Part shown: one piece after another, positions 8,286 to 26,977 of the stretch
Numbering within the stretch: the first letter of the stretch is position 1
Layout of the letters: each line of letters starts with the position of its first letter
Assembly (NCBI RefSeq): GCF_035994185.1
Contig: NZ_CP108538.1
Location: 1,364,001 to 1,428,000 of the forward strand
Source: Streptomyces sp. NBC_01217
GTDB lineage: Bacteria > Actinomycetota > Actinomycetes > Streptomycetales > Streptomycetaceae
Direction of reading: 5' to 3'
DNA: 64,000 nucleotides
Position numbers and translations under genes: made by a program
The notes under the pieces: generated by a model
Seen by the model: only the letters and a program-made list of their open reading frames with translations
Told to the model about the DNA's origin: nothing
Databases searched by the model: none

Positions 8286-8321
8286 GGGGCCGCTGGTCCC
8301 CGGCGGGGGCCGACCGACCCC
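8286..8321 (-). promoter_or_regulatory. Tandem OsdR/DevR-like boxes upstream of usp-adhP
   Basis: Two imperfect palindromes, GGGGCCGCTGGTCCCC (8286-8301) and GGGGCCGACCGACCCC (8306-8321), start exactly 20 bp (two helical turns) apart, upstream of the Usp start at 8222. This is the clearest tandem example of the motif family in the island. Assignment to an OsdR-like regulator is inferred. Confidence 0.65.
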
Positions 8322-8330
8322 ATCGGCGCA

Positions 8331-8368
8331 CTGGTGCGGTGGGCCCGCCGGCAGGCCCACCGCACCAG
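8331..8368 (-). terminator. Strong terminator after the first doxX-like gene
   Basis: A perfect 15-bp stem (CTGGTGCGGTGGGCC against GGCCCACCGCACCAG) with an 8-nt loop lies just after the doxX-like stop and just upstream of the boxes driving usp-adhP, insulating the two transcripts. Confidence 0.8.
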
Positions 8369-8374
8369 CGGTGT

Positions 8375-9004
8375 TCAGCGCAGCCATCCGTTACCGCGGA
8401 CGAACGGGAGCCGGGCCCAGAGCCGTCCGAGTCCGAGGGTGTCGCCGGCGGAGGTGACGGCGAGGGCGATGAGCACCACGGCGTAGACGAGGTGGTAGTC
8501 GACGAACGGGTTCGTCGACATGCTCATCGAGCCGTCCGACAGGTGCTGGGCCGGTGGCCATTCGGCCACCCACATCAGCGCCATCATCGCGGTGCCCGCG
8601 AATGCCGTCAGGCGCAGGGCCACCCCTGCGGCCAGCGCGAGGCCGATGCCGAGCATGCCCAGCATGAACAGCCAGTCCGCCCAGGCGGCGCCGGCCCATG
8701 CGTGGAAGGTGGACTCCATCGGTCCGACGGCGACGTGGCCCAAGAACCCCTCGGCGGGCGAGCCGCCATCGATCCAGCCCTTGCCGGAAGCGGTGGCGTA
8801 GCCGAGTCCGAAGGTCTTGTCGAGAAAGGCCCACAGGAAGACGAAGCCCATCAGCAGGCGCGCCGAGGCGAGGACGTAGGCCCGTGCGGTGTGCGTGTCG
8901 CTGTGTGCCGACACGGCGGACTCGGGTGCGGCGGTGGTCCGGTTCCTGCGCAAGGACGGCAGGTGGAAACCCGCACTGCGGTGAGAGTGCTCGTGCACGG
9001 CCAT
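8375..9004 (-). CDS. DoxX-like membrane protein, copy 1
   Basis: A 209-residue integral membrane protein with about four hydrophobic segments and a soluble N-terminal tail of about 45 residues. It resembles the DoxX/thiosulfate-quinone oxidoreductase family (LLMGFVFLWAFLDKTFG, GYATASGKGWIDGGSP, FMLGMLGIGLALAAG, STNPFVDYHLVYAVVLIAL). I chose the ATG at 9004 (GAAGGGAT upstream) because the sister gene at 23918-24541 begins the same way (MAVHEHSH against MAVHDQPH). The two copies flank the island. Function is not established; a redox or respiratory role is inferred from family and context. Confidence 0.82.
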   Translation of the reverse strand: MAVHEHSHRSAGFHLPSLRRNRTTAAPESAVSAHSDTHTARAYVLASARLLMGFVFLWAFLDKTFGLGYATASGKGWIDGGSPAEGFLGHVAVGPMESTFHAWAGAAWADWLFMLGMLGIGLALAAGVALRLTAFAGTAMMALMWVAEWPPAQHLSDGSMSMSTNPFVDYHLVYAVVLIALAVTSAGDTLGLGRLWARLPFVRGNGWLR

Positions 9005-9321
9005 GGTGGTGATCCCTTCGGGACTGTCCGGGGTGGTTCCTGACACCACTCACTCTGGTGCAGAAGCCGGTCGCGCGCCGGGTGCCGATGGGCCGTGATC
9101 GCGGGGCTGAACGGGCCCTCCATGGAGGGACGTTCGGCCACGCCGGAGCCAGGGGCCGGGCGGATCCCCGCCCGGCTGTGAGCGAGCACTGCGACGGACG
9201 AGTTCTCTCCCACGTGCTCCGCGGTGTTCCCCGCCAGGGACACGTGACGTGAACGGCCGTCAGAAGTGAGCGGCGTTCAGCTCCCGTCCGCCTCGCCGCG
9301 ACCGGCGGCGGGTCGCCCGGT
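9005..9321. promoter_or_regulatory. Intergenic promoter region of doxX-like copy 1 with one good OsdR-type box
   Basis: These 317 bases hold no gene that I can support. A box GGGGCTGAACGGGCCC lies at 9103-9118 and a weaker one (AGGGACGTTCGGCCAC) at 9126-9141, 23 bp further on. They are about 100-135 bp upstream of the doxX-like start. Confidence 0.5.
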
Positions 9322-11067
9322 TCACGCGTCCGACGCGTCCGTGCCCTGTCCCACCGGTGCGTGCCACACGATGCGCGTACCCCTGCCTTCCGGACTGCTC
9401 AACTCCATGTCCCCGCCGAGTTCGCGCGCCCGTTCCGCCATGTTGCCCAGTCCGCTGCGTCGGCCTCCGGGCGCTATGCCCACGCCGTTGTCCGTGACCG
9501 TGAGCCGCACTTCTTTGCCATCGGTCTCCAGGGCCAAGTCGGCGCGGTCCGCCCGGGCGTGCCGGGCGATGTTGGTCAGGGACTCGGACAGAACAGCCAG
9601 GACGTGGTCCGCGGTCTCCCTCGGGACGTGTGTGTCGAGCAGGCCCTCCATGCGGACGCTCGGCGCGAAGCCCAGGACCGGTGCGGCGTCACCGGCCGTC
9701 CGCACCACCCGGGCGCGCAGCCCGGAGGACACGGTGTCGTCCCGGTAACGCAGGCCGAAGATCGTCGACCTGATGATCTTGATGGTCTCGTCGAGGTCGT
9801 CCACCGCCCGCAGGACCCGCTCGGAGGCCCTCTCGTCCTGGATACGCCGGCCGGCACTCTGGAGTGTCATGCCGGTGGCGAACAGCCGCTGGATCGCCAG
9901 GTCGTGCAGATCGCGTGCGATCCGGTCGCGGTCCTCCAGCAGCGCGATCTGTTCGGCGTCCTGGCGGCGCTCCGCCAGTTCCATGGCGACGGCGGCCTGC
10001 GCGGCGAAGACCTGCAGCGGTTGCGTCTCCTTCTCGGAGAACTCGGGTCGGCCCGCTTCCCGGACCAGAAGAACCACACCGCGCACCCTGTCGTCCCCGG
10101 AACCGACGGGGACGGCCACGGCCGGTCCCAGACCACCGGAACGCGGAAGGCCGACCGACATCCGCTCGTCCTGGGAGACGTCCGGGCTGCTCACCCACGT
10201 CCCCTGCCGGAAAGCCTGCCCCACGAGGGTTCCCTCCACGGGCAGCACCATCCCGCGCAGTGCCTCGGCCTCCTGGCCGATCGCGAGTTCCACGGCGAGC
10301 GTGTCCGTCCCGCTCACCGGCATGGCCACCACGCTCAGGGCGGAGCCGGTGATCTCTCTGGCCCGTTCGGCGATCAGCCGCAGCACCCCGCCCTGATCGG
10401 TGCCGGACATCAGGGTGTGGGTGATCTCCGCGTTCACCTGGAGCCAGCGCTCGCGCAGCCGGGACTCCTCGTAGAGGCGGGCGTTGTCGATCGCCACGCC
10501 GGCCGCCACGGCGAGGGTGGCCAGCACCGCCTCGTCATCTTCGTCGAACTGCTGCCCGCCCCGCTTCTCGGTCAGGTACAGGTTCCCGAAGACGTGATCC
10601 CGTACCCGGATGGGGACGCCCAGGAAGGTGTTCATCGGCGGGTGGTGGGCCGGGAATCCGTAGGAGGCGGAGTTCTCGGAGAGCTTGGTCAGCCGCAGCG
10701 GCTCGGGGTGGCGGATCAGCTCACCGAGGATGCCATGGCCTTCCGGGTAGGGGCCGATGCGGGCGATCTGCTCGTCGCTGACACCCACCGTGTGGAAGGC
10801 CGAGAGCCGCTTGCCGTCCGGGCCGATCACTCCCAGTGCGGCGTACTCCGCGTCGACCAGGGCCGCCGCGGCCTCGACGATGCTGTGCAGTGCCTGTTCG
10901 AGGTCCAGTTCCCGGCCGACCGACAGCACCGCCTCCAGCAGGCTGTGCACCCGGTCACGGGTGCCACGTGCCGCGTCCAGACGGGCCTGCAGCTCATCCA
11001 GCAACTCATCCAGCCGCAACTGCGGCAGCCCCCCACGGGCCTCCCGAACCTCTCTGGCACTTCCCAC
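9322..11067 (-). CDS. osdK: GAF-domain sensor histidine kinase, OsdK/DevS-like
   Basis: A 581-residue soluble kinase. The order is a coiled N-terminal segment with an LDELLDEL repeat (about 10-35), GAF 1 (about 50-200), GAF 2 (about 230-370), a HisKA_3 dimerisation domain with the phospho-acceptor His388 (DRIARDLHDLAIQRLF), and HATPase_c (about 480-575, with TDNGVGIAPGG and GLGNMAERARELGG). The architecture matches mycobacterial DevS/DosT and Streptomyces coelicolor OsdK (SCO0203). The frame is open far upstream, but the GTG at 11067 is preceded by GGAGG at ideal spacing and starts the conserved part. Whether GAF 1 binds haem cannot be decided by eye. Its probable partner regulator is encoded 11.5 kb away at 22580-23272, unlike the usual adjacency. 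Confidence 0.88.
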   Translation of the reverse strand: MGSAREVREARGGLPQLRLDELLDELQARLDAARGTRDRVHSLLEAVLSVGRELDLEQALHSIVEAAAALVDAEYAALGVIGPDGKRLSAFHTVGVSDEQIARIGPYPEGHGILGELIRHPEPLRLTKLSENSASYGFPAHHPPMNTFLGVPIRVRDHVFGNLYLTEKRGGQQFDEDDEAVLATLAVAAGVAIDNARLYEESRLRERWLQVNAEITHTLMSGTDQGGVLRLIAERAREITGSALSVVAMPVSGTDTLAVELAIGQEAEALRGMVLPVEGTLVGQAFRQGTWVSSPDVSQDERMSVGLPRSGGLGPAVAVPVGSGDDRVRGVVLLVREAGRPEFSEKETQPLQVFAAQAAVAMELAERRQDAEQIALLEDRDRIARDLHDLAIQRLFATGMTLQSAGRRIQDERASERVLRAVDDLDETIKIIRSTIFGLRYRDDTVSSGLRARVVRTAGDAAPVLGFAPSVRMEGLLDTHVPRETADHVLAVLSESLTNIARHARADRADLALETDGKEVRLTVTDNGVGIAPGGRRSGLGNMAERARELGGDMELSSPEGRGTRIVWHAPVGQGTDASDA

Positions 11068-11189
11068 CGATGACCCTCCACACCCCACCGAACTGCGACA
11101 ACCGTGCGCTCCCCCGCCACGGTAGCGGCTCGGCTCCGAGGGCGGTACGGGAACACTGTCACAGCAAGGGCGTGGGCCGGCCGGGGTGT

Positions 11190-12218
11190 TCAGTTCCCCG
11201 GCAGCCGGGTCGCGACATACTCGGTGAGGTCCAGCAGGCGGTTGGTGTAGCCCCACTCGTTGTCGTACCAGCCGAAGACCTTCACCAGTTCCCCGTGCGC
11301 CTGGGTCAGCGGTGCGTCCAGGACGCACGAAGCGGTGTCGCCGACGACGTCGCGCGAGACGATCGGGGCGTCGGACACCCTCAGCACGCCCTTCAGCGGG
11401 CCTTCCGCGGCCTCCCGGTAGGCGGCGTTCACCTCTTCCGCGCTCACCGGCCGGCCGAGTACCACCGTCAGATCGGTCAGCGAGCCGTCCTCGACGGGGA
11501 CGCGCACGGCACTGCCGTCCAGTGTGCCGGCCAGCTCCGGCAGGACCAGGCCCACGGCGCGGGCGGCACCGGTGGTGGTGGGGATGATGTTCACCGCCGC
11601 CGAGCGGCCGCGACGCAGGTCCTTGTGCAGGCCGTCGAGGACGACCTGGTCGTTGGTGTAACCGTGGATGGTGGTCATCAGCCCCTTGACGAGCCCGAAG
11701 TGGTCGTCGAGCACCTTCACCATGGGAGCCACGCAGTTGGTGGTGCAGGAGGCGTTGGAGATCACGTGATGCTGTTCCGCGTCGTACGTGCCCTCGTTGA
11801 CACCCATCACGATCGTGGCGTCGACGCCCTTGCCAGGCACGGACAGCAGCACTTTGCGTGCCCCGGCCGCCAGGTGCAGGCCGGCCTGCTCGCGCGTGCG
11901 GAAGCGGCCGGTCGACTCGATCACCAGATCCACTCCGAGGTCGCCCCACCCCAGGGCGGCGGGGTCGCGCTCGGCAGTCACCTCCATCCGGTGTCCGTCC
12001 ACGGACAGCGAGGTCTCATCGTGCTCGACGGTGCGGTGCAGCCGCCCGTACGTCGAGTCGTACGTCAGCAGATGCGCCAGCGCCTCGGGCGAGGTGGTGT
12101 CGTTCACCGCCACCACCTCCAGCGGCACACCGGTGCCGGTGTCGGCTCGTTCCAGAGCGCAGCGCAGATAGTTGCGGCCGATGCGGCCGAAGCCGTTGAT
12201 GCCCACACGCACTGTCAT
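11190..12218 (-). CDS. gap: Glyceraldehyde-3-phosphate dehydrogenase
   Basis: A 342-residue GAPDH converting glyceraldehyde 3-phosphate, phosphate and NAD(P)+ to 1,3-bisphosphoglycerate. The N-terminal Rossmann motif is GINGFGRIGR and the catalytic cysteine is Cys158 in SNASCTTNC; the C-terminal WYDNEWGYTNR is typical. The ATG at 12218 follows a strong GGGGAGGA ribosome binding site. A box lies about 105 bp upstream (12325-12340). Placed beside PFL and PPDK in a dormancy-type island, it is likely a conditional second isozyme rather than the housekeeping GAPDH; that is an inference. Confidence 0.93.
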   Translation of the reverse strand: MTVRVGINGFGRIGRNYLRCALERADTGTGVPLEVVAVNDTTSPEALAHLLTYDSTYGRLHRTVEHDETSLSVDGHRMEVTAERDPAALGWGDLGVDLVIESTGRFRTREQAGLHLAAGARKVLLSVPGKGVDATIVMGVNEGTYDAEQHHVISNASCTTNCVAPMVKVLDDHFGLVKGLMTTIHGYTNDQVVLDGLHKDLRRGRSAAVNIIPTTTGAARAVGLVLPELAGTLDGSAVRVPVEDGSLTDLTVVLGRPVSAEEVNAAYREAAEGPLKGVLRVSDAPIVSRDVVGDTASCVLDAPLTQAHGELVKVFGWYDNEWGYTNRLLDLTEYVATRLPGN

Positions 12219-12324
12219 GTCGGTTGTCCTCCCCTGAAGTTCGGCGATCCCGGTCTGTTCCGGGACCGCTTTCAGCTTTGCGGTGGTGCACCCGTCGGGT
12301 CATGGGCCGTGCGGGGACGGTCCG

Positions 12325-12340
12325 GGGGACCTTCGGCCCC
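12325..12340 (-). promoter_or_regulatory. OsdR/DevR-like box upstream of gap
   Basis: GGGGACCTTCGGCCCC lies about 105 bp before the gap start. It has the same CTTC centre as the pfl box at 15501-15516. Confidence 0.55.
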
Positions 12341-12384
12341 TCGGCGGCGGGACCGCGGCGCTCGGGCCGAAGACGCGGCTGCGG

Positions 12385-13134
12385 TCAGTGGGCCACCAGA
12401 CCGTGTGCGCGGAACTGGCCGCGGACCCGGTCCACCAGTGCCGCGTCGGGGGTCGGCGTGTCTCGCAGGGGAAAGGGGACGTCCAGGGCGTCGTACTTGG
12501 CGGCGCCGAGCTTGTGGAACGGCAGGACATCGATCCGCTCGGCGCTGCCGAGCCCCGCAAGGAAGCCACCGAGCCCGTCGACCGCCTCCGGATCGTCGGT
12601 CCAGCCGGGCACCAGCACGTATCTGATCCACATGCGCTTGCCCAGTCGGTCGAGACGGGTGGCGAAGTTCAGTGTGGGGTCGAGTCCGCCGCCGGTCAGC
12701 TTCCGGTAGGTGGGGATGTCGAAGGACTTGATGTCCAGCAGCACAAGGTCGGTGTCGGCAAGGAGTTCGTCCGTGGCACGGAGGCCGAGGAAGCCGGAGG
12801 TGTCGAGCGCGGTGTGCAGACCGGCCTCCTTGCAACGGCGCAGCACGGCGCCGGCGAACGCGGACTGAAGCAGAGGCTCACCGCCCGTGAGAGTCACTCC
12901 GCCACCCGCCGTGGTGATGAACGCCCGATACTTGTCGATCTCCCCCATCACCTCGTCGACGGTGACCGCCCGCCCGTCGCGCATGTGCCAGGTGTCGGGG
13001 TTGGCGCAGTACAGGCAGCGCAGGGGGCAGCCACTGACGAACAGCACGAACCGGGTCCCGGGACCGTCCACGCCGGTGGACAGGTCCCAGGAGTGGATCC
13101 GGCCGATGGCCGCGCCGTGCACGATGCCGGTCAC
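12385..13134 (-). CDS. pflA: Pyruvate formate-lyase activating enzyme (radical SAM)
   Basis: A 249-residue radical SAM enzyme that installs the glycyl radical on pyruvate formate-lyase. The [4Fe-4S] cluster cysteines are Cys36, Cys40 and Cys43 (GCPLRCLYC), followed by the family's [14 protein letters not shown] segment and the SAM-binding TGGEPLLQ motif (about 101-108). The length matches PflA. It overlaps pflB by 4 bp at 13131-13134, so the two are translationally coupled. The enzyme needs strictly reducing conditions, which points to a low-oxygen role. Confidence 0.95.
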
Positions 13135-15389
13135 AGCGATCCGTGGAAGGTGCGGCTGATCACGTCGAGCTGCTGCTCGCGGGTCAGGCGGACGAAGTTG
13201 ACGGCGTATCCGGAGACCCGGATCGTGAGCTCCGGGTACTTCTCCGGGTGCTCCATCGCGTCCTCCAGCACGGCCCGGTCCAGGACGTTGACGTTCATGT
13301 GGAAACCGCCCGCGGACATGTAGGCGTCGAGGATGCCGACCAGGTTGCCCGCGCGCTCCTCGGGTACGTGCCCGAGTCCCTCCGGAGTGATCGTGGTGGT
13401 CAGGGAGATGCCGTCGCGCGCCTGCTCGTACGGCAGCTTGGCCACCGACAGCGCCGAGGCCGCCACCCCGTGCCGGTCCCGGCCGTTCATCGGGTTGGCG
13501 CCCGGAGCGAAGGGCCGGCCGGCGCGGCGGCCGTCGGGGGTGTTGCCGGTGTGCTTGCCGTACACGACGTTGGAGGTGATGGTCAGCACCGACTGCGTGT
13601 GCTCGGCATCCCGGTAGGTGGGGTGCTTGCGCACCTTGGCCATGAACGACTCCACCAGTTCGACGGCGAGGGAGTCGGCCCGGTCGTCGTTGTTGCCGTA
13701 CGCCGGGAACTCGCCCTCGGTCTCGAAGTCCACGGCCAGTCCCGTCGCGTCCCGGAACACCCTCACCCGTGCGTGCCTGACAGCGGACAGACTGTCCACG
13801 GCGACGGACAGGCCGGCGATGCCGCAGGCCATGAAGCGGTGGACGGGATAGTCGTGCAGCGCCATCTCGATGCGCTCGTAGGCGTACTTGTCGTGCATGT
13901 AGTGGATGACGTTGAGCGCGTCGACGTACGTCTGCGCGAGCCAGTCCAGCACGCGGTCGTAGGCCGCCGACAGTTCGTCGTAGTCCAGGTACTCGCCGCT
14001 CAGCGCCGGCATCTCGGGAGTGATCTGCTCACCGTTCATCTCGTCCCGGCCACCGTTGACGGCATACAGCAGGGCCTTGGCGAGGTTGACCCGGGCGCCG
14101 AAGAACTGCATCTGCCTGCCCACCGCCATCGCGGAGACGCAGCAGGCGATCGCGGTGTCGTCACCGGTGCGCGGGCGCATCAGCTCGTCCGACTCGTACT
14201 GGACGGCGCTGGTGTCGATGGAGACCTGGGCACAGAACTCCTTGAACCCGGCCGGCAGCCCCGGCGACCACAGCACGGTCAGGTTGGGTTCCGGGGCCGG
14301 TCCGAGGTTGTAGAGCGTCTGCAGGAACCGGAAGGATGTGCGGGTCACCAGCGGACGGCCGTCCACGCCTATACCGCCGATGGACTCGGTCACCCACGTC
14401 GGGTCACCGGAGAACAGGGCGTCGTACTCGGGGGTGCGCAGGAAGCGCACGATCCGCAGCTTGATCACGAAGTCGTCGATCAGCTCCTGGGCACGGGACT
14501 CGTCGAGGACGCCCTCCTCCAGGTCCCGCTGGAGGTAGACGTCCAGGAAGGTGGAGGTGCGGCCCAGCGACATCGCCGCGCCGTTCTGTTCCTTCACCGC
14601 CGCCAGGTAGCCGAGGTAGAGCCACTGGACGGCCTCGTGCGCAGTGTCGGCCGGGCGGGAGACGTCACAGCCGTAGGTCGCCGCCATCCGGGTCAGCTCA
14701 CCCAACGCCCGTAGCTGCTCGGCCAGTTCCTCACGGTCGCGGATGACGTCCGCGGTGGACGGCCGGGCGTCCAGCAGAGCCCGTTCGGCGCGCTTCGCCT
14801 CGACCAGCCGGTCGGTTCCGTAGAGGGCGACGCGGCGGTAGTCGCCGATGATCCGCCCGCGGCCGTAGGCGTCCGGCAGCCCTGTGATGATGCCGACCCT
14901 GCGGGCCGCCCGCATCGTGGGGGTATAGGCGTCGAAGACGCCGTCGTTGTGAGTCTTGCGGTAGGTACTGAAGACCTTCGTCACGAACGGGTCGGGCTGG
15001 TAGCCGTACGCCTTCAGGCTGTTCTCCACCATGCGCAGACCGCCGTTGGGCATGATCGCGCGCTTCAGCGGGGCGTCGGTCTGCAGGCCGACGATCAGCT
15101 CGCGGTCCCGGTCGATCCAGCCGGGGGCGTGCGAGGTGATCGTGGACGGGGTGGCGGTGTCCACGTCGTGGACGCCCCGGCGCCGCTCCTCGGGGAAGAG
15201 CGCGCCGACCTTCTCCCACACCGTGCGGGTGCGGTTCGTCGGTCCGGTCAGGAACGAGGCGTCGCCGTCGTAGCACGTGTAGTTGGCCTGGATGAAGTCG
15301 CGCACGTCGATGCGCTCACGCCATCCCGTTCCGGCGAACTGCCGCCAGGCGTCGGCGGTCCGGGGGCCGGCTGTCACCGTCGCGGTCAT
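13131..15389 (-). CDS. pflB: Pyruvate formate-lyase (formate C-acetyltransferase)
   Basis: A 752-residue glycyl-radical enzyme converting pyruvate and CoA to acetyl-CoA and formate. Everything needed for catalysis is present: the adjacent cysteines Cys416-Cys417 (AIACCVSAM), the following [13 protein letters not shown] segment, and the glycyl-radical loop near the C-terminus (RVSGYAVNF, Gly727). Length and order match the E. coli enzyme. The ATG at 15389 follows AAAGGA. It is the first gene of a pflB-pflA operon with a perfect GGGACC/GGTCCC palindrome upstream. PFL is oxygen-inactivated and unexpected in an aerobic mycelial actinomycete. I see no frameshift. Confidence 0.96.
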
Positions 15390-15500
15390 CGCAGGTCCTT
15401 TCGTCGGGGCATCCGTTCACTGTCGATGCTGGTCGTCCGAGGTGCCGACGAGGAGTGCCGGACAGGGCACCGCACCGGTCCCCATCCGGCCCCGGCCCGC

Positions 15501-15516
15501 CGGGACCTTCGGTCCC
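15501..15516 (-). promoter_or_regulatory. OsdR/DevR-like box upstream of pflBA
   Basis: Contains the perfect inverted repeat GGGACC-TTC-GGTCCC (15502-15516), about 112 bp before pflB. It could also act as a small hairpin, but recurrence of the motif upstream of other island genes favours an operator. Confidence 0.6.
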
Positions 15517-15570
15517 ACCCGTGCACCGAGCCGGAAAGCCCTGGCCGAAGGCGAGTTCGGCGCGGATGAG

Positions 15571-19637: not shown

Positions 19638-19639
19638 CC

Positions 19640-19677: not shown

Positions 19678-19738
19678 GGGAGCAGAAGCGCGCAGCAGTC
19701 TTGAGGCATCGCCGGAACGATCACAAGGAGTTGAGCAC

Positions 19739-20122
19739 ATGACCGCCAAGGACATCGGCACCGATGGTGTCACCGCAGCCGTGCGGGTGCGGGTCGAGGG
19801 CGACGTGGACGAGGAGTCGCTCGTGTACCTGCGGGCGAAGATCGGAGCCGTGCTCGACCGTCCCGGGCTTCCGCCCGTCAGTGGTGAGGTGCGCGTCACC
19901 AGGGCGGCGGCCCACCACGTCGAGTTCCCCTGGGCCGCCGGCGCCGAGATCCAGGTGGGCGCCCACCTCGTCGTCGTGCACGTCCGCGAGGCGAGTGCCC
20001 GGGAACTGGCCGACCGGCTGCACGACCGGCTGCGCAGCCGCACGGAACGCGCCGCGCACCGCTGGGACGCGGCCCGCAGGACGGCCACGCCGCCCCCGTG
20101 GCGCGGCGGCCCGCAGCAGTAG
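19739..20122 (+). CDS. HPF/sigma-54-modulation-like small protein
   Basis: A 127-residue protein whose central part (about 14-110) reads like a ribosome hibernation-promoting (HPF/S30AE) fold: alternating strands (VRVRVEGDVD, SGEVRVTRA, HLVVVHVREA) and two helices. The match is moderate, not textbook. The ATG at 19739 follows AAGGAG. It sits between ppdK and the CBS-BON gene. The mycobacterial DosR regulon also contains an HPF-like protein (Rv0079), which supports a role in stabilising idle ribosomes. A strong hairpin follows at 20137-20159. Confidence 0.62.
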   Translation: MTAKDIGTDGVTAAVRVRVEGDVDEESLVYLRAKIGAVLDRPGLPPVSGEVRVTRAAAHHVEFPWAAGAEIQVGAHLVVVHVREASARELADRLHDRLRSRTERAAHRWDAARRTATPPPWRGGPQQ

Positions 20123-20136
20123 TTTCCTCCAGCGTC

Positions 20137-20159
20137 CGCTCCCCGCCCGGCGGGGAGCG
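20137..20159 (+). terminator. Terminator or attenuator hairpin before the CBS-BON gene
   Basis: Perfect 10-bp stem CGCTCCCCGC / GCGGGGAGCG with a 3-nt loop, 14 bp after the HPF-like stop. There is no T-run, so partial read-through to the next gene is possible. Confidence 0.6.
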
Positions 20160-20209
20160 GGCCCGATCCGATTCCCGCTCTCCGCCGTGCTGGCGAAGGA
20201 GAAACCGCC

Positions 20210-20857
20210 ATGACACCTCACACCGTCGGCCAGGTGATGACCAGCGAAGTCGTCCGGGCCCGCCGGACAACACCGTTCAAGGAGGTCGTCCGGCTGCTCG
20301 ACCACCACCGCGTCAGCGGGCTGCCTGTGGTCGATGAGGACGACAAGGTTCTCGGCGTGGTCTCCGGGACCGACCTGGTGCGCGCGCAGGCGAACCGGGC
20401 GGGCCGGAGCCCTGTCCGAGCCGTCGTGGCACAGGACTTGATGTCGACGCCCGCTGTCACCGTCCATCCCGAACAGTCCGTCCCGGATGCCGCCCGGCTG
20501 ATGGAACGCCGCGGTGTCGAACGGCTGCCCGTGGTCGACGAGGAGGACCGCCTCATCGGCATCGCGACCCGCCGGGACCTGCTCCGGGTCTTCCTGCGCA
20601 CGGATGACGACATCCGCCGTCAGGTGACCGAGGAAGTACTCGTCACAGGCTTGGGACTGCCTCCCGAAGCCGTCCTCGCTTCCGTCCGCGACGGTGTCGT
20701 CACCCTCGACGGCAGCGTGGAACTGCGCAGCCAGGTCCCGGAGGCCGTCCACTCGGTGTGGCGGCTGGAAGGGGTGGTCGGTGTGGTGAACGGTCTGGCG
20801 TTCCACGTCGACGACTGCGCACCGCCCGAGACGTCCGGCCACACCGGGATCACGTGA
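20210..20857 (+). CDS. CBS-pair protein with C-terminal BON domain
   Basis: A 215-residue cytoplasmic protein with CBS 1 (about 1-58, VGQVMTSEVVRARRTTPF and VSGLPVVDEDDKVLGVVS), CBS 2 (about 70-132, VERLPVVDEEDRLIGIATR) and a BON domain (about 140-210, VTLDGSVELRSQVPEAV). The ATG at 20210 is preceded by GAAGGAG. CBS pairs bind adenosyl ligands such as AMP or ATP and could report energy charge. Hypoxic response protein 1 (Rv2626c) of the DosR regulon is a CBS-pair protein, so the gene fits the island. Its target is unknown. Confidence 0.9.
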   Translation: MTPHTVGQVMTSEVVRARRTTPFKEVVRLLDHHRVSGLPVVDEDDKVLGVVSGTDLVRAQANRAGRSPVRAVVAQDLMSTPAVTVHPEQSVPDAARLMERRGVERLPVVDEEDRLIGIATRRDLLRVFLRTDDDIRRQVTEEVLVTGLGLPPEAVLASVRDGVVTLDGSVELRSQVPEAVHSVWRLEGVVGVVNGLAFHVDDCAPPETSGHTGIT

Positions 20858-20859
20858 CC

Positions 20860-21093
20860 GGCCCGACCGCGGGGCGCGGGGAGGACAAGGCCGCCAAGAA
20901 CATGTTCGCGCGGGAGCACGTCACACACAGCATGGGCCCGATGAAGACGGTCGGGGTCATGGCCCGCGACGACATCGAGGACGTGATCGAGGTCGCGGAG
21001 CCGGTGGGCGCGGTGTGCGCCATCACGCCCGTCACCAACCCGACGTCCACCACCGTCTTCGGAGACGGAGTCCAAAGCATGCGCCCAAGGTGA
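20860..21093 (+). pseudogene. Remnant of adhE (acetaldehyde/alcohol dehydrogenase), N-terminal piece
   Basis: About 65 codons read like the N-terminal acetaldehyde-dehydrogenase region of AdhE: GRGEDKAAKNMFAREH, then a KTVGVMARDDIED-like stretch, then VAEPVGAVCAITPVTNPTST. Similarity stops near 21060 and the frame ends at 21093, so more than 90 percent of the roughly 870-residue protein is missing. AdhE would complete a PFL-dependent ethanol fermentation branch. The piece directly follows the CBS-BON gene and has no clear start of its own. Confidence 0.78.
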
Positions 21094-21149
21094 GCCCTCG
21101 TCGTTCAGCGCCGGCCGCAGCGGCTCCGGGCCGGCACGGTGTTCGGTGA

Positions 21150-21505
21150 GCGGGCGCATTCCCGTGGCCGGGTCGGTGGCGGCGAACCCGGGGCGTCACG
21201 CAGCAGCAGAGCGGTGACGAAGAGGGGCCCGGCCGGCCGGAGGTAGAGCAGAGCACCGGCGTGATCGTGGCCGCCGACACGATCGGGAACATCACCCGTC
21301 CACCGAGCCGGTCGCTCGGCGCCCCGACCGGGATCCGGCCCAGCGAGCCGATAACGACCGGCACCGCCACCGGCAGCGACTGCTCGAACGACGACAGGTC
21401 GAGACCGTCCTTGAAGCGAGGGCCGAGAGGGCCGAGCAGCGCCCACGCCCAGAAGTTCACGGCGAAACCGACCGTGGCCAGGGCCGGCATCAGCCCCTGC
21501 GGACG
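21150..21505 (-). pseudogene. Remnant of narK-type nitrate/nitrite transporter
   Basis: On the minus strand about 80 codons (21245-21505) read like the first helices of a NarK-family MFS transporter: LATVGFAVNFWAWALLGP, then GPRFKDGLDLSSFEQSL, then GSLGRIPVGAPSDRLGGR. After VSAATITPVL the similarity continues in another frame (LLYLRPAGPLFVTALLL) and then stops. It is a frameshifted, truncated gene; about three quarters of the roughly 430-residue transporter is missing. narK2 (Rv1737c) is a DosR-regulon gene in Mycobacterium tuberculosis. Confidence 0.72.
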
Positions 21506-21628
21506 GACAGACGACCCCGGGTTCGGATCCGGCCGTCCCTGCGAACAGTCCCCTGTACTGCCCTGCTCGCGCGGCTCCCGCGCAACAACGGCTGCAATCG
21601 GCCGTCTCCACGGGCGCATTGAGGGATT

Positions 21629-21644
21629 GGGGCCGGTCGGCCCT
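21629..21644 (+). promoter_or_regulatory. OsdR/DevR-like box upstream of the PPOX-fold gene
   Basis: GGGGCCGGTCGGCCCT lies 35 bp upstream of the PPOX start. The same site could once have served the divergent narK remnant. Confidence 0.58.
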
Positions 21645-21678
21645 ACCTCCTCGCGGCGACCGCGGGAACGATGAGCTG

Positions 21679-22101
21679 ATGTTCCAGAACGACACCTCTC
21701 GCTCACTCGACCGGCAGGAGTGCCTGCGGCTGCTCGCCAAGGCGCCGGTCGGCCGCGTGGTCTACACCCGGCAGGCGCTGCCCGCGGTCCTTCCCGTCAA
21801 CTTCTCCCTGCACACGGACGCCTCAGTCCTGCTGTGCACCTCGTCGGACTCGGACCTCGTACGCGCCATCGACGGCGTCGTCGTCGCCTTCGAGGCGGAC
21901 GAGTTCGACGCGACGGCCCGGTCCGGCTGGAGCGTGGTCGTCACCGGCCGGGCGGCCGTTGTGACCGACCCCGCCGAGCAGGAGCGGCTCTCGCAGGCCG
22001 GGCTCATCTCCTGGATGCCCCTACGGGACGCAGTGTTCGTACGGATCGAGTCCGAAATGGTCACCGGACGCGAACTCAGAGGACGACGCGGCACCCAGTG
22101 A
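21679..22101 (+). CDS. PPOX-fold flavin-type protein (pyridoxamine 5'-phosphate oxidase family)
   Basis: A 140-residue split beta-barrel protein of the actinobacterial group that begins with LDRQECLRLLAKAPVGRVVYTRQALPAV-like sequence (about 10-37) and ends VTGRELRG. Such proteins bind FMN or F420, but their substrates are mostly unknown. The ATG at 21679 gives MFQNDTSRSLD; the ribosome binding site is weak (GGGAAC). A second, internally deleted copy lies at 26523-26735. Confidence 0.8.
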   Translation: MFQNDTSRSLDRQECLRLLAKAPVGRVVYTRQALPAVLPVNFSLHTDASVLLCTSSDSDLVRAIDGVVVAFEADEFDATARSGWSVVVTGRAAVVTDPAEQERLSQAGLISWMPLRDAVFVRIESEMVTGRELRGRRGTQ

Positions 22102-22579
22102 TGCGCGGCCTGCCGCGGTCCACAAGGCCAGGCTGCTGGTGCTGCGTCAGTTCGTCGGCTCGGGCCTCGTATCGGGCCTCGTGCGAGGAGTCTCCCTCAC
22201 CGGCCCTATGGCGGGTACCAGGTACGGGTTGTGCGGACGCACGGGGTGCAAGGACGCCATCGGGGCCGTAGCCGAAATGGATCAGCAGCTGCGGGAAGCA
22301 GCGCCGCCTCGATCACGGAGAAGGTCTGTGGCAGGCACAGCGGAACGTCGATCGTGGGGTGCCTCAGGACTTCGACGTCGACAAAGCCCGGCCGGTGCTC
22401 CGGCTCACCTGCCGGCTTCCCGACCCCGCACGGTCGGAACGCATGGTGGAGCATGCGGGCCGAGCGTGGTTGCGCGCGCGGCCGCCACCGACTCCGCCAC
22501 AGCCGGATCAATCACCGGGCCGGTGAACGGCATCCGGCTCATGTGCCAGACGTCCTGCCCCACGGCTCGCCGCGCGGCG
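22102..22579. other. Gap with an unrecognised coding-like remnant (22306-22510, + strand)
   Basis: No intact gene. A frame at about 22306-22510 (+) has streptomycete-like GC3 and an unbroken stretch containing QDFDVDKARPVLRLTCRLP, ending at a TGA near 22510, but no plausible start. I do not recognise the family. Given the other remnants nearby it is probably another decayed island gene. Confidence 0.35.
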
Positions 22580-23272
22580 TCAGTGTCCTTCTTGCCTGCG
22601 CCGATCCTGCGCCTGGGTGGCGATGACGGCGGCCTGTATACGTCGCTCCACACCGAGCTTGGCCAGCAGACGGGAGATGTGGTTCTTCACCGTCTTCTCC
22701 GCGAGGTAGAGCCGCTGGCCGATCTGGCGGTTGGTCAGCCCTTCGCCGATCAGCGCCAGAATCTCCCGCTCGCGCTCGGTCAGGCCCGGCAGGGCATCGG
22801 GCTCGGGCTCCGGCTCCTGGCCCTTGCGGAGGCGGGCCATCAGCTTGGCGGTGGCGCTGGGGTCGAGCAGGGACTGCCCGCGGGCCACCGCGCGCACGGC
22901 CGACACCAGGTCCGCGCCCTGGATCTGCTTCAGGACATACCCCGAGGCACCCGCCATGATCGAATCCAGCAGGGCCTCCTCGTCGTCGAAGGAGGTGAGC
23001 ATCAGGCAAGCCAGTTCCGGCAATTGCGAGCGCAGCTCGCGGCACACGGTCACACCGTCGCCGTCGGGCAGACGCACGTCGAGCACAGCCACCTGCGGAC
23101 GCAGCGCGGGGACGCGGACCAGTGCCTGCTCCACGTTTGCGGCCTCGCCGATCACGGTGATGTCCGGCTCGTCGTTCAGCAGGTCGTGCACTCCGCGACG
23201 TACCACCTCGTGGTCGTCCAGCAGGAAGACCCGGATCGGGTTGTCGGGTCCGGGTCGCTCTCTGTCCGCCAT
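22580..23272 (-). CDS. osdR: LuxR/NarL-family response regulator, OsdR/DevR-like
   Basis: A 230-residue two-domain response regulator. The receiver domain (about 12-130) has the acidic pair Asp19-Asp20, the phospho-acceptor Asp65 ([13 protein letters not shown]) and the Lys in [13 protein letters not shown]. The C-terminal LuxR-type HTH (about 155-215) reads [20 protein letters not shown]. It resembles mycobacterial DevR/DosR and S. coelicolor OsdR (SCO0204). The ATG at 23272 follows AGGAG. It is the likely partner of the kinase at 9322-11067 although not adjacent to it. A box at 23379-23394 suggests autoregulation. Confidence 0.88.
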
Positions 23273-23378
23273 CTACGGCTCCTGTCCTGTGTCGGCCCTC
23301 TCGGGCACCGGAAACCGCCAGATGGGCGAGACCGGTCGTTCCTGTCACAGATCTTGCGCGATTCCGCGCCGAACGGCC

Positions 23379-23394
23379 AGGCCCGGTCGGCCCT
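23379..23394 (-). promoter_or_regulatory. OsdR/DevR-like box upstream of osdR
   Basis: AGGCCCGGTCGGCCCT lies 107 bp upstream of osdR. A weaker version (GAGACCGGTCGTTCCT) is at 23328-23343. Confidence 0.52.
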
Positions 23395-23446
23395 TTCGCC
23401 CTGGTGTTCCCTTCCTCCCGAGCGCATCGATCGCCGCGGTCCACCC

Positions 23447-23462
23447 GGTGCCGACCGGTCCT
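23447..23462 (+). promoter_or_regulatory. OsdR/DevR-like box upstream of the usp remnant
   Basis: GGTGCCGACCGGTCCT lies 32 bp upstream of the usp remnant and divergent from osdR. Confidence 0.45.
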
Positions 23463-23493
23463 GAACACCCGAACAGCCCGGGCGGGCCTTCAC

Positions 23494-23583
23494 CGTTGGG
23501 CCGTCGGCCTGGACGGCTCCCCCGAAAGCCTTGCCGCCGTCGACCGGGTCGCCCGCGATGCGCAGCACCGTGCCGTGCCACCT
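23494..23583 (+). pseudogene. Remnant of a universal stress protein gene (N-terminal 30 codons)
   Basis: About 30 codons encode AVGLDGSPESLAAVDRVARD, matching the N-terminus of the intact Usp proteins here (TVGLDGSPESRAAADWAARE). The frame then loses all similarity and no second nucleotide-binding loop is found. It keeps an upstream box. Confidence 0.68.
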
Positions 23584-23804
23584 CGGCCCGAAGCGCGCCG
23601 GCCGGAACCTCTGACGCCTGGGTGGCGCCTCCCGTCTGCGAGACAGTGGCGGCGGGAGGGGTACCGATCCCCTGAGGCACCCACTCCTCGGGGAACAGAC
23701 GAGTGCCCATGCCCCGGACGGCGGCGTGCGTTCCGGCGGACCAGCCCGGAATGCGGAATCGCCCTCTTACGGGGTGCAGTTGGCCTGGGTGCTGCCGCGC
23801 CCGT

Positions 23805-23820
23805 CGGGCCGTTGGGCCCG
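23805..23820. promoter_or_regulatory. OsdR/DevR-like box between the usp remnant and doxX-like copy 2
   Basis: CGGGCCGTTGGGCCCG has identical inverted 6-bp arms. It does not precede any intact gene: on its minus side is the osdR/usp-remnant region and on its plus side the 3' end of the doxX-like gene. It may be an orphan left by gene loss. Confidence 0.4.
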
Positions 23821-23862
23821 GTCGGGTGAGCCGGCGTTGTCCGGCCGCCGATGCACGAGCGA

Positions 23863-23898
23863 CCGGGGCACCTCCGCCGACGAGCGGGGGTGCCCTGG
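23863..23898 (-). terminator. Terminator after doxX-like copy 2
   Basis: Inverted repeat with core arms GGGCACC / GGTGCCC, extended to 10 bp with one G-U pair, beginning 20 bp after the stop codon. Confidence 0.55.
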
Positions 23899-23917
23899 TC
23901 CGACGAGCGCGCGGCCC

Positions 23918-24541
23918 TCAGAGCAGCCAGCGGTTGCGGCTGACGAACGGCAGCCGCGCCCACACACTGCCCAGTCCCCACGTGGCGCCGGCACCCGCGA
24001 CCGCCAGGGCTATCAGGACGATGGCGTAGATGAGGTGGTAATCGACGAAGGGGTTGGTCGACATGCTCGCCGAACCGTCGGAGAGGTGCTTGGCCGGCGG
24101 CCACTCGGCGATCCACATCAGCGCCATTATTGCGGTTCCGGCGGCTGCGGCGAGCCGCAGGCCGATGCCCGCGATCAGGGCGACACCGACGCCGAGCATG
24201 CCGAGCATGAACAGCCAGTCCGCCCAGGCGGCTCCGGCCCACTCGTGGAAGGTGGACTCCATCGGGCCGACGGCGACACCACCGAGGAAGCCCTTGGTGG
24301 GCGAGCCGCCGTCGATCCAGCCCTTCCCGGAGCCGGTCGCGTAGCCGAAGCCGAAGGACTTGTCCAGGAACGCCCACAGGAAGACGAACCCGGTCAGGAG
24401 ACGGAGCCCCGCGAACACGTACGCACGGGTCGCCGTCGCGGCGGTGTTCGTCTCGTCGGCGCAAGTGGGGGCCGCCTTGAACCTGCGCGGGGACGGGAAG
24501 CGGAGTCCCCGGTACCGGTGGGGCTGGTCGTGCACTGCCAT
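23918..24541 (-). CDS. DoxX-like membrane protein, copy 2
   Basis: A 207-residue membrane protein closely similar to the product of 8375-9004 over its whole length (LLTGFVFLWAFLDKSFGFG, SGKGWIDGGSP, AWADWLFMLGMLG, SMSTNPFVDYHLIYA), with about four hydrophobic segments and a soluble N-terminal tail. The start at 24541 was set by alignment with copy 1 (MAVHDQPH against MAVHEHSH) and by GAAAGGGAT upstream. Tandem boxes lie 92-128 bp upstream. Retention of two such similar copies at opposite ends of the island suggests dosage or subunit pairing. Biochemical role unknown. Confidence 0.82.
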   Translation of the reverse strand: MAVHDQPHRYRGLRFPSPRRFKAAPTCADETNTAATATRAYVFAGLRLLTGFVFLWAFLDKSFGFGYATGSGKGWIDGGSPTKGFLGGVAVGPMESTFHEWAGAAWADWLFMLGMLGVGVALIAGIGLRLAAAAGTAIMALMWIAEWPPAKHLSDGSASMSTNPFVDYHLIYAIVLIALAVAGAGATWGLGSVWARLPFVSRNRWLL

Positions 24542-24632
24542 GATGTTCATCCCTTTCGAGGAATGTGACGCGCAGGATGTCGGACGGCTTTCGTTGCGCC
24601 TTCAATGTCCCGCGTCGTCGACGCCCGTCGGA

Positions 24633-24669
24633 GGGGCTGCAAGACCCGGATCGTGGGCCGAAGGGCCCC
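24633..24669 (-). promoter_or_regulatory. Tandem OsdR/DevR-like boxes upstream of doxX-like copy 2
   Basis: GGGGCTGCAAGACCCG (24633-24648) and TGGGCCGAAGGGCCCC (24654-24669) start 21 bp apart. Confidence 0.58.
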
Positions 24670-24704
24670 CTGTCCAGGCCCCGTTGGGCGTCGGCTCAGC
24701 CGCC

Positions 24705-25290
24705 CCAGGTCCGGTCGTGGTGGCGCGGGCGGGCGTCCTCCATCCGCCGGCGTACGGTCGCGGCGCGCACGGCGAGACCGGGGACGGGGTCAATGACGTC
24801 CATGACCAGGCGGTAGCGGTAACGGTCGAGGTCATTGCGGACGACCATGTCGAAGGGCGTAGTTGTGGTGCCGATCTCCTTGCAGCCGCGTACGTGCAGG
24901 TTTCTGTGTACGGTGCGGCGGTAGGCCAGGGGGTGGATCAGCCCCGGGTATCCGTGGCAGGCGAAGACGACCGGCTTGTCGGTGGTGAACAGACCGTCGT
25001 ACTCGAAGTCGCCTGCTTGCCGTTCTCCGTGCCCGCCCACTCCCGGATCCCGGCGCCCGCACACAGCGGACCTTCGCCTGCCCCATCGTCAGCCAGTCCA
25101 AGCAGGGCTGCTTGCTCGCCACCATTGACGAAGCCGGGGTGCGACGTGGCTCGGTACGCCGCCGGGAAGGGGGAACTACCGGAACAGTCTGCCCTGTTCG
25201 CCACGAGGTAGATCTGGCCGACGGACAGGTGGTTCGCGGCGCGCCAGTGGATGTGCAGCGTTCTCAGCTGGGCGTCGGTGAGCGGGCAGA
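24705..25290 (-). pseudogene. Remnant of xylulose-5-phosphate/fructose-6-phosphate phosphoketolase
   Basis: Three separated pieces on the minus strand match successive parts of phosphoketolase. The N-terminus (about 25193-25288) has PLTDAQLRTLHIHWRAANHL. A middle piece (about 25015-25125) has [14 protein letters not shown] in one frame and [14 protein letters not shown] in another, showing a frameshift. The C-terminus (about 24711-25007) has [20 protein letters not shown], then [20 protein letters not shown]. Around 600 of about 790 residues are missing. Phosphoketolase yields acetyl phosphate without oxygen or NAD+, which fits the island. The tandem boxes at 25380-25415 are probably its old promoter. 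Confidence 0.85.
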
Positions 25291-25379
25291 TGCCTGCTGC
25301 GTGTCGAGGACGTCTGAGTTCCCACGCGGAACGGGGTTCGATCGGCGATGCGTGCGGGTCCGTACGTCCTCGCCCGGCC

Positions 25380-25415
25380 CTGTCCGCCGGGCCCCCGACA
25401 GGACCGGTCGGACCA
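25380..25415 (-). promoter_or_regulatory. Tandem OsdR/DevR-like boxes upstream of the phosphoketolase remnant
   Basis: CTGTCCGCCGGGCCCC (25380-25395) and AGGACCGGTCGGACCA (25400-25415) start 20 bp apart, 92-127 bp before the first recognisable phosphoketolase codons. Confidence 0.5.
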
Positions 25416-25439
25416 TCCGCGTCGCCGCCGTGCTCGTCC

Positions 25440-26270
25440 TCAGGTCGTCGGCACGAGCACCACTGGGCAGTGGGAGCGGTGCAACAGGACATGCGCGACC
25501 GGGCCGAGCGGCGGACCGGGCCAACCCGCGCGCCGATGCGTGCCGATGACCACGACGTCGGCCTCGCGGGTACCCGCCAGCAGGCCGTGGGCCGGTCCGG
25601 TGCGGACCGTACGGCTGTCGACCTCGACCTCGGGATACTTTTCCCGCAGTCGGGCGATGCTGAACCGGGGAACGGATTCGCCTCCCCGGTCGTTCCGGGC
25701 CTGGCGCTCCTGGCCGCGGCTCATCGCGGCTACCGGCGAAGGCAGTTCGGGCGTGATGTGCCGGTGCGGCGCACAGTGCACGACACGTAGCCCGGCCCCG
25801 CGCCGGGACGCCTCCTGGAAGGCATAGGCGGCTGCGGCGTCATCGGCGCCGCTCCCCAGGCCGAGCAGCACGTCACGTCCCTCGTCGCGAGGGTGCTCCC
25901 CACGGACGACCAGCAGGGGACCGTGCACGTGCGCGGCAAGGCGCCAACTCACCGAGCCGGCCAGCAGGCCGGAGACACTGCCGAACCCCCGGGTGCCCAC
26001 AACGGTGAGAACCGCGCCCTCGCTCTCCCCTGCCAGTACCCGCACAGCGCCGCCCTCCACGGCCCTGGTCTCCACCGGCAGACCGGGATGACGCTCGTGG
26101 ACCCGCGAGGCGGCCGAGGCCAGAATCGGCCCCGCCTCGTCTCGATCGGCCACGGCGTAGACGACGCGCAACGGCGCGCCGCTGCGCACCGCCTCCTCTG
26201 CGGCCCGGTCCAGAGCCCGTACAGCGACCAGTGAACCGTCCACTCCAACAACCACATGACGGCCAGTCAT
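25440..26270 (-). CDS. Universal stress protein, tandem Usp domains
   Basis: A 276-residue protein with two Usp domains; the nucleotide-binding loops are VVGTRGFGSVSGLLAGSVS and VIGTHRRAGWPGPPLGPVA. The ATG at 26270 gives MTGRHVVVGVDGS; AAGGGAACAGGA precedes it. It is shorter and more divergent than the two other intact Usp proteins, and its second loop has Pro in place of the usual Ser (GPV for GSV), which may weaken ATP binding. Its promoter region carries two boxes. Confidence 0.9.
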   Translation of the reverse strand: MTGRHVVVGVDGSLVAVRALDRAAEEAVRSGAPLRVVYAVADRDEAGPILASAASRVHERHPGLPVETRAVEGGAVRVLAGESEGAVLTVVGTRGFGSVSGLLAGSVSWRLAAHVHGPLLVVRGEHPRDEGRDVLLGLGSGADDAAAAYAFQEASRRGAGLRVVHCAPHRHITPELPSPVAAMSRGQERQARNDRGGESVPRFSIARLREKYPEVEVDSRTVRTGPAHGLLAGTREADVVVIGTHRRAGWPGPPLGPVAHVLLHRSHCPVVLVPTT

Positions 26271-26415
26271 TGTCCTGTTCCCTTCTGTTTCGTGCGCAGG
26301 GGCGCTCGTTTCCTGGGAGTGCCGAGGGCGGCGACAGGATCGATGCATGTCGGCTGGATGTCGATGCTCTCTGCGGCTCCCCGGCAATGCTCGTCGTCCG
26401 CGGACGCCGCGGGCA

Positions 26416-26475
26416 GGGGCCGACGGAACCCATCCGCACGCCGTACGGCCCCGTTCCGTCGGGCCGTACAGCCCC
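26416..26475 (-). promoter_or_regulatory. OsdR/DevR-like boxes upstream of the third usp gene
   Basis: GGGGCCGACGGAACCC (26416-26431) and CGGGCCGTACAGCCCC (26460-26475), 44 bp apart. The first is followed by CATC as in the box at 8306-8321, which also precedes a usp gene. Confidence 0.5.
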
Positions 26476-26522
26476 GGACCCGGCCGGAGGAGAAGGAAGT
26501 GGGGGCAGGGGGGACGAGACGT

Positions 26523-26735
26523 TCAGGCGGTGAAGTCCACCCCATAGAGCGTGCGTCCGCCGACGAGCCCACGCACGGTGACCAGTTGGGGCCGGGCCCC
26601 GTCGACCTGATCCGCCTCGAAGGCGGGCAGGGCACGACGCCTGTTGCCGATGCGGCCGACGGGCACCTTGGCCAACAGCCGCAAACACTCCTGCCGCCCG
26701 AGTTCGCGAGACCCGCCCGGAGATTCGACAGACAC
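26523..26735 (-). pseudogene. PPOX-fold gene with large internal deletions
   Basis: A 70-codon frame with a GTG start. Its first part (LGRQECLRLLAKVPVGRIGN) matches the N-terminus of the intact PPOX gene at 21679-22101, FEADQVD matches the middle, and PQLVTVRGLVGGRTLYGV matches the C-terminus. About 75 internal residues are missing across two joints, including the barrel strands that hold the flavin. The frame stays open, so a short protein could be made, but it cannot form the usual fold. A box lies 68 bp upstream. Confidence 0.72.
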
Positions 26736-26802
26736 GCACCGACCGGAACGTGCGGGACGGGCTGCTGTCCTGGGTGTCTGGGTGCCGGGCCACGGTCCGG
26801 TG

Positions 26803-26818
26803 AGGGCCCGATGGTTCC
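26803..26818 (-). promoter_or_regulatory. OsdR/DevR-like box upstream of the deleted PPOX gene
   Basis: AGGGCCCGATGGTTCC, 68 bp upstream of the GTG start of the remnant. Confidence 0.42.
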
Positions 26819-26939
26819 GCTACCGGGCCCGGACGGCCACACCTCACCGCCTGAGCGGCGTACGAGAACGCAGCCGTGACGTCCTGTCCTCCAGCCCCCG
26901 GCGGGGCTGAGCCGAACGACCCGACCCCATCTGTGAGTT

Positions 26940-26977
26940 GACCCCGGTCGGCCCTCCCGCGCTGCCTGGTCGGCCCC
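26940..26977 (+). promoter_or_regulatory. Tandem OsdR/DevR-like boxes upstream of the Rv1733c-like gene
   Basis: GACCCCGGTCGGCCCT (26940-26955) and CTGCCTGGTCGGCCCC (26962-26977) start 22 bp apart and share the GGTCGGCCC half; the left halves are weaker. Confidence 0.5.

Follow-up and report, generated by a model that had tools for sequence, protein, structure and literature searches.

Probable OsdR operators at seemingly fixed distances from predicted promoters in a gene island of Streptomyces sp. NBC_01217 and in related loci

A 64,000-nucleotide stretch of the Streptomyces sp. NBC_01217 genome (contig NZ_CP108538.1, positions 1,364,001 to 1,428,000 of the forward strand), here called the window, contains a gene island in which 16-bp imperfect palindromes recur in the intergenic DNA (window positions 8286–26977), raising the question of what these elements are and how they act on the genes beside them. 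Judged by sequence, the palindromes are the published 16-nt OsdR box, AGGGCCGATCGGCCCT, as given in the portion of PMC5069765 available to us. They are very probably operators of OsdR, a Streptomyces relative of DevR/DosR, and would drive the island as class II-type promoters; binding and activation in NBC_01217, the oxygen signal, cooperativity and the identity of the -10 elements are parts of this reading that we infer. The motif itself is ordinary and already in print, and the addition made here is a quantified promoter geometry in Streptomyces.

Palindromes were scored with a symmetric weight matrix built from the 26 sequence entries (two of them identical) in Table 1 of PMC5069765, which in the available portion of that paper are predicted S. 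coelicolor OsdR sites, some tested by electrophoretic mobility shift assay (EMSA); window sequence was not used. An initial annotation had put the number of palindromes in the island at about 20 and listed ten of them as examples, and a 16-bp imperfect palindrome is present at all ten, nine of them scoring at least 8: 8286 (8.2), 8306 (12.2), 12325 (13.4), 15501 (8.7), 16744 (13.1), 19662 (11.3), 21629 (18.2), 24654 (13.1), and 25400 (10.2). The tenth, 26416, is weak (5.7), but together with 26437 and 26460 it makes up a phased triplet. Strong sites absent from those ten lie at 9126 (14.1), 15571 (12.4), 16706 (14.8), 23379 (16.4, in the osdR promoter), and 26460 (12.4). Window sites thus reach 18.2, and the published sites range from 11.2 to 18.2 on the same matrix, which is their own training matrix. 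The proposed identity as OsdR/DevR boxes agrees with the published Streptomyces consensus and with the DevR-like regulator predicted in the window. The GGGAC/GTCCC DevR core that had been put forward holds as far as kinship with the DevR box goes, but most window boxes have GGGCC half-sites rather than the GGGAC of the mycobacterial consensus, and the Streptomyces OsdR box is the better reference.

The boxes are concentrated in the island. Its bounds (8200–27000) were taken from the earlier finding, and the background was drawn at random from the same genome as 33 stretches of 20 kb each. Intergenic matches scoring at least 11 number 13 in 4,523 island positions and 8 in 115,893 background positions, making the background about 40-fold poorer; at 12 or above the counts are 10 and 1, and at 13 or above 7 and 0. 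Gene calls were made by a simple script, except that the 15 island transcription units, as well as several starts, were defined manually (8222, 16848, 24541, 26270, and 27041 differ from the script, and 25200, for a phosphoketolase remnant, is a guess). A box scoring at least 8 lies within 330 bp upstream of 13 of the 15 island units (12 at 10 or above, 11 at 11 or above) as against 23 of 343 background gene-upstream regions, whose starts are the script's own, unlike the hand-set starts of the window. A box upstream of nearly every island gene, as first described, is therefore what the matrix recovers; it finds none scoring at least 7 upstream of osdK and the CBS-BON gene.

These densities bear on the simplest alternative, that the palindromes arise simply from the 70% G+C composition of intergenic DNA. 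The loose pattern GGRCC-N4-GGYCC with at most one mismatch is mildly above shuffled sequence, occurring 62 times in the window against a shuffle mean of 45.87 (2 of 100 shuffles reach 62), and at low scores there is little excess, with 73 window matches of at least 6 against 63 expected under a second-order Markov model. Genome-wide, a strict pattern is found 11 times, just as often as its reversed control, with six of the 11 falling within three osdR islands described below; looser whole-genome patterns gave 75 and 49 against 58 and 55. Because they carried little signal, the loose consensus scans were replaced by the published-site matrix. The expectation of few chance matches consequently stands for high scores in intergenic DNA and not for the loose consensus or low scores, and the motif is not equally common in the 33 background stretches, though the strict genome-wide pattern equals its control. 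With the same-genome intergenic background about 40 times poorer at 11 or above, and with a spacing and -10 phasing that have no evident compositional cause, we regard a compositional origin as scarcely credible.

Comparison was extended to 80 osdR-like loci, the best of at least 478 in a scan of genome contigs, from Streptomyces and its relatives, Kitasatospora and Streptacidiphilus among them; some strains are represented twice and the less similar loci may be paralogues. Every one of the 80 has at least one intergenic match scoring 12 or more, and together they have 320 such matches in 275,109 intergenic positions and 43 in 1,272,347 coding positions. Since osdR promoters were the source of the published motif, those of these relatives are no independent test of it, whereas their other promoters are.

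The boxes tend to be stacked at a fixed step. Around 272 non-redundant anchors scoring at least 13 (from the 80 loci, the window, and two further osdR islands of NBC_01217), partner boxes scoring at least 6 lie 20, 21, 22, and 23 bp away in 18, 26, 23, and 11 cases, for a total of 78 partners in 2,141 positions against a baseline rate of 0.0029. Partners at 24–31 bp number 0–3, those at 32 and 33 bp five each, and the other offsets listed up to 75 bp have at most six. In the window, 40 boxes scoring at least 3 form 13 of their 33 pairs at 20–23 bp (six at 22 bp alone), with the other 20 pairs spread over the other 41 spacings within 16–60 bp. The pairing at 20–23 bp reported initially is thus borne out in the window and seen also in the related loci.

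A second regularity links box and promoter. In 342 non-redundant promoters (324 from relatives and 18 from the own genome), measured from the centre of the gene-proximal box scoring at least 11, the pattern A-NNN-T occurs 67 times at +31 and 67 at +32, and 41 and 39 times at +53 and +54; the next-highest counts between +10 and +104 are 17 (+34) and 15 (+52). This places A-NNN-T at +31/32 in 133 of the 342, at +53/54 in 80, and at either in 211, the start sites being predicted ones; the corresponding numbers for five control quartets of offsets are 9, 10, 13, 14, and 24. Grouped by blastp linkage into 55 downstream-gene families, the promoters have a mean share with the geometry of 0.44 against 0.05, in the 35 families of at most three promoters the share is 0.37 against 0.03, and 14 of the 20 families with at least four promoters show it in at least 46%. 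In redundant counts, a box scoring at least 11 stands at 31/32 in 136 promoters, and at five other offset pairs in 4, 7, 3, 15, and 21.

By convention a -10 element is read with A at -11 and T at -7. If A-NNN-T is read in this way, the box centre falls at -42.5 or -43.5. The +53/54 peak lies one 22-bp step past +31/32, with a weaker box between or none recognisable. With the -10 as reference point, a box scoring at least 11 stands in the proximal or distal place in 234 promoters, and 84 of these score at least 4 at both; the notion of an invariably stronger distal box was dropped, as the distal box is the stronger in just 47 of the 84. The -10 bases are G/C-A-N-G-A/C-T-G (SANGMTG, degenerate), with modest avoidance of T at the first place (3 of 234, against 5.8% of 11,039 intergenic A-NNN-T; P 5.6e-4). 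TANNNT was rejected as the -10, appearing at most three times at any offset in 349 sites; it is A-NNN-T that peaks. Within the window, 8 of the 15 units fit at +31/32 and 10 at +31/32 or +53/54, the two at +53/54 being the glyceraldehyde-3-phosphate dehydrogenase (GAPDH) gene and gene 23918–24550; other offset pairs average 1.25 of 15. Comparison with the related loci thus suggests that boxes stand at fixed distances from the promoters, and from these distances the manner of the island's induction can be predicted.

Some or all of the palindromes, above all the TTCG-centred ones (12325, 15501, and 24654), might instead be RNA hairpins that end transcription, and several are indeed near-perfect GC-rich inverted repeats with TTCG-like loops between tandem genes. 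Terminators would be expected between convergent genes, but boxes scoring at least 11 occur there at 0.26 per kb (10 boxes) as against 2.12 in divergent (183) and 1.33 in tandem (193) regions, and the 41 TTCG-centred boxes follow the same order (0.05 convergent, with two boxes, 0.23 divergent, and 0.13 tandem per kb). The -10 geometry accompanies 20 of 59 TTCG-centred cases and 314 of 725 others, and the SCO5978/5979 region, which has a TTCG-centred site, is among the EMSA-bound probes in the consulted part of PMC5069765. Termination is accordingly a very improbable role for them. As a separate observation, the TTCG-centred variant makes up 41 of the 553 boxes scoring at least 8.5 in the 80 loci, the window, and the two further islands, and is placed like the standard form. 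A terminator-like long inverted repeat, noted by eye, does occur at 8331–8368, between the end of gene 8375–9004 and the boxes of the first universal stress protein (USP) gene.

With OsdR as the regulator, the following course of events would fit these regularities. OsdK, a GAF sensor kinase, would sense low oxygen or redox state and lead to phosphorylation of OsdR, dimers of which would occupy one to three 16-bp boxes in 20–23 bp steps. In the usual case the box would replace the -35 element, its centre near -42.5/-43.5, and phosphorylated OsdR would recruit RNA polymerase to a poor -10 (S-A-N-G-M-T-G) whose A follows the box centre by 31–32 bp. At the remaining, less numerous promoters, the box that can be recognised would lie one step (about 22 bp) further upstream. 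The USP, alcohol dehydrogenase, GAPDH, pyruvate formate-lyase, and pyruvate phosphate dikinase (PPDK) genes would be induced jointly with osdR, whose own box would provide positive feedback.

Several results weigh against this account, among them the strict genome-wide pattern that equals its control. Six of the 20 larger families show the geometry in at most 30% and two in none (pfl-like 0/7 and osdK-like 0/7, both recognised solely by N-termini and lengths), and 60 of the 234 fitted promoters score below 4 at the -42 place and so have no recognisable proximal box. In the window, A-NNN-T is missing from both places in five of the 15 units (osdK, pfl, CBS-BON, the phosphoketolase remnant, and the 19739 gene), and four of the eight fitting at +31/32 depend on proximal boxes scoring below 6. 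Neither OsdR nor OsdK is named above a curated cut-off among the NCBIfam matches listed, and the genome encodes four OsdR-type regulators that could share the boxes.

The predicted products of the two regulatory genes resemble the mycobacterial pair. OsdR (22580–23272, leftwards) is a NarL/DevR-type response regulator with Response_reg and GerE domains, and its alignment with DevR 3c3w spans most of the protein (residues 13–224, E 3.5e-77), including the 18-residue recognition helix, with LDVRLPDG and KTVKN kept; the assignment of its phospho-accepting Asp is one we presume. The OsdK-like sensor kinase (9322–11067, leftwards), with its two GAFs, HisKA_3, and HATPase, aligns in the first GAF with the DevS GAF 2y8h (E 3.9e-44, including the HPPM stretch) and with 2vzw (E 1.9e-49), which we take to be DosT; a haem-ligand position in this GAF is likewise presumed. 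Searches of Pfam, NCBIfam, and PDB further identified USPs, alcohol dehydrogenase, GAPDH, pyruvate formate-lyase, a radical-SAM protein, PPDK, CBS-BON, and a pyridoxamine-phosphate-oxidase-like (PNPOx-like) protein.

The four OsdR-type proteins of the genome (E < 1e-80, the window's included) all keep a K-T-[VI]-K-N recognition-helix core, the other three having 74, 68, and 64% identity. Island 2 (about 751–774 kb) contains a second osdR, an OsdK-like kinase, USPs, CBS-BON proteins, PPK2, a phosphoenolpyruvate-binding PPDK-type fragment, and a cation (P-type) ATPase, and island 3 (about 8.633–8.640 Mb) has an osdR paralogue beside VKOR, a globin/FAD-domain protein, and COX1 (cytochrome oxidase subunit I). 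Both have high-scoring intergenic boxes, reaching 20.0 in island 3, so that the same box is found in at least three islands of the genome, and two intergenic matches scoring at least 12 lie in 40 kb around the 64% paralogue, which may be the SCO3818 counterpart. Multiple copies are no peculiarity of NBC_01217, a notion we rejected: 56 of 61 genus genomes have osdR matches (E <= 1e-70), one to five each, and nine of the 61 have at least four.

The boxes might thus chiefly serve another regulator of the family, be it the OsdR of island 2 or 3 or the possibly SCO3818-like 64% paralogue; the shared recognition-helix core is compatible with this, and SCO3818 is described as an additional cognate regulator of OsdK in the passages of PMC5069765 to hand. 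It is nevertheless unlikely, as osdR sits inside the island with its own box, and shared binding would leave a role for OsdR. We propose, tentatively and as an idea that could well prove wrong, that a stereotyped design across OsdR islands of Streptomyces and near kin (stacks at 20–23 bp, a -10 with A-11 and T-7 and rarely T-12, and a distance of +31/32 or one further step), together with an operator common to paralogues, would unite them in one cross-wired low-oxygen super-regulon, predictable from sequence and silent at its weak -10 elements when the activator is missing.

The S. coelicolor OsdKR regulon (SCO0203/SCO0204) is the closest relative of this system; for it, PMC5069765 in its available portion reports a 16-nt consensus, EMSA binding with probe mutation for uspA, and three promoters that are osdR-dependent in promoter fusions. 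Alike in both are the 16-nt palindrome, the USPs, PPDK, alcohol dehydrogenase, and an osdR with its own box. The two genes form an osdR-osdK operon in S. coelicolor, whereas in NBC_01217 about 11.5 kb separate osdR from the osdK-like gene, and NBC_01217 differs further in holding gap and pfl with boxes in its island, and three osdR islands plus a fourth paralogue. In S. lividans, the seen part of PMC6302529 reports expression correlated with osdR for GAPDH, pyruvate formate-lyase and an activase fragment, PPDK, and a USP; its passages give expression data, and promoter anatomy was not found in them. The DevR/DosR regulon of M. tuberculosis, in the portion of PMC3029386 consulted, has close-packed sites, cooperative binding, and a proximal site overlapping the -35 element. 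The island has closely packed boxes and an Rv1733c-family gene in common with it, would also share cooperative binding and a proximal box over the -35 position, and is unlike it in the mostly GGGCC half-sites and other gene content; the 20–23 bp step and +31/32 distance were measured in Streptomyces and near kin. Box spacing or box-to-minus-10 distance in Streptomyces was not found in our searches or in the passages at hand of PMC5069765, PMC3029386, PMC6302529, and PMC12919924, and may be published elsewhere; in the PMC5069765 main text as available, 'transcription start', 'helical', and 'tandem' are absent and 'cooperativ' is found just once, among the references. Mycobacteria have already provided geometry of this kind; what is added, as far as these searches went, is the quantified rule for Streptomyces.

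The operator of one model Streptomyces is thereby indicated to govern a homologous island in NBC_01217 and the 80 related loci examined, and a loose palindrome becomes a promoter rule, with a box step of 20–23 bp and a -10 at +31/32 or one further step. From this rule follow predictions of start sites, of which way the boxes act where genes diverge, and of a leaderless transcript. Streptomyces appears to have retained the geometry reported for mycobacterial DevR, and its laboratory strains could therefore serve for studying RNA polymerase recruitment by dormancy switches.

The predicted promoters in the left part of the island are transcribed leftwards. Upstream of the genes for a USP (start set at 8222) and alcohol dehydrogenase are two boxes in a 20-bp step (8286–8301 and 8306–8321) and a predicted -10, GAAGCT (8257–8262), with its A at +32 from the centre of box 8286. 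Upstream of the 209-aa gene 8375–9004 is a three-box array (9081–9141) at 9081 (9.4), 9103 (10.8), and 9126, with steps of 22 and 23 bp and a predicted -10 CAGAGT (9052–9057; A at +32 from 9081 and +54 from 9103). The GAPDH gene (start 12218) follows a TTCG-centred box (12325–12340) and a predicted -10 AAAGCT (12274–12279), its A at +54, one array step away. Two boxes precede the pyruvate formate-lyase gene (start 15389), a TTCG-centred one at 15501–15516, which has no phased -10, and a second at 15571–15586.

The divergent region between USP2 and PPDK (16685–16781) has five boxes, at 16685 (4.6), 16706, 16724 (8.8), 16744, and 16766 (5.3). The predicted USP2 -10 (AAGGCT, 16656–16661, leftwards) has its A at +32 from weak 16685 and +53 from 16706, and the predicted PPDK -10 (GACGCT, 16805–16810, rightwards) at +32 from weak 16766 and +54 from 16744. 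Rightwards-facing boxes also lie upstream of the small gene 19739–20122 (19662–19677, without a phased -10) and of the PNPOx-like gene (21629–21644; start set at 21679), where the predicted -10 AACGAT (21667–21672) has its A at +31 and would put the transcript start at or near the ATG, giving a leaderless transcript.

The remaining leftwards promoters begin with that of osdR itself, with its box at 23379–23394, a further box at 23447–23462 (11.5), and a predicted -10 CAAGAT (23351–23356; A at +31 from box 23379). The 210-aa gene 23918–24550 (start set at 24541) has a box at 24654–24669 and a predicted -10 GACATT (24604–24609; A at +53), and USP3 (start set at 26270) has a three-box array (26416–26475) at 26416, 26437 (8.3), and 26460, with steps of 21 and 23 bp and a predicted -10 GAGCAT (26387–26392; A at +32 from weak 26416 and +53 from 26437).

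We note that the products of genes 8375–9004 and 23918–24550 are alike by eye, and OsdR boxes lie upstream of both; neither has a Pfam or NCBIfam match, and a 'DoxX-like' label was dropped as unsupported by any domain match. The segment 24696–25200 is a phosphoketolase C-terminal remnant (XFP_C, with NCBIfam phosphoketolase matches), and two boxes 44 bp apart (25356–25415, leftwards; 25356 scoring 10.1, and 25400) still stand upstream of it, without a phased -10. At the island edge, gene 27041–27622 codes for an Rv1733c-family protein (NF050032, E 2.6e-56), and Rv1733c belongs to the DosR regulon. Upstream of this gene are two weak phased boxes (26940–26977, rightwards; 7.2 and 3.7), 22 bp apart, and a predicted -10 CACCTT (27001–27006) whose A lies at +32 from 26962 and +54 from 26940, a weak case.

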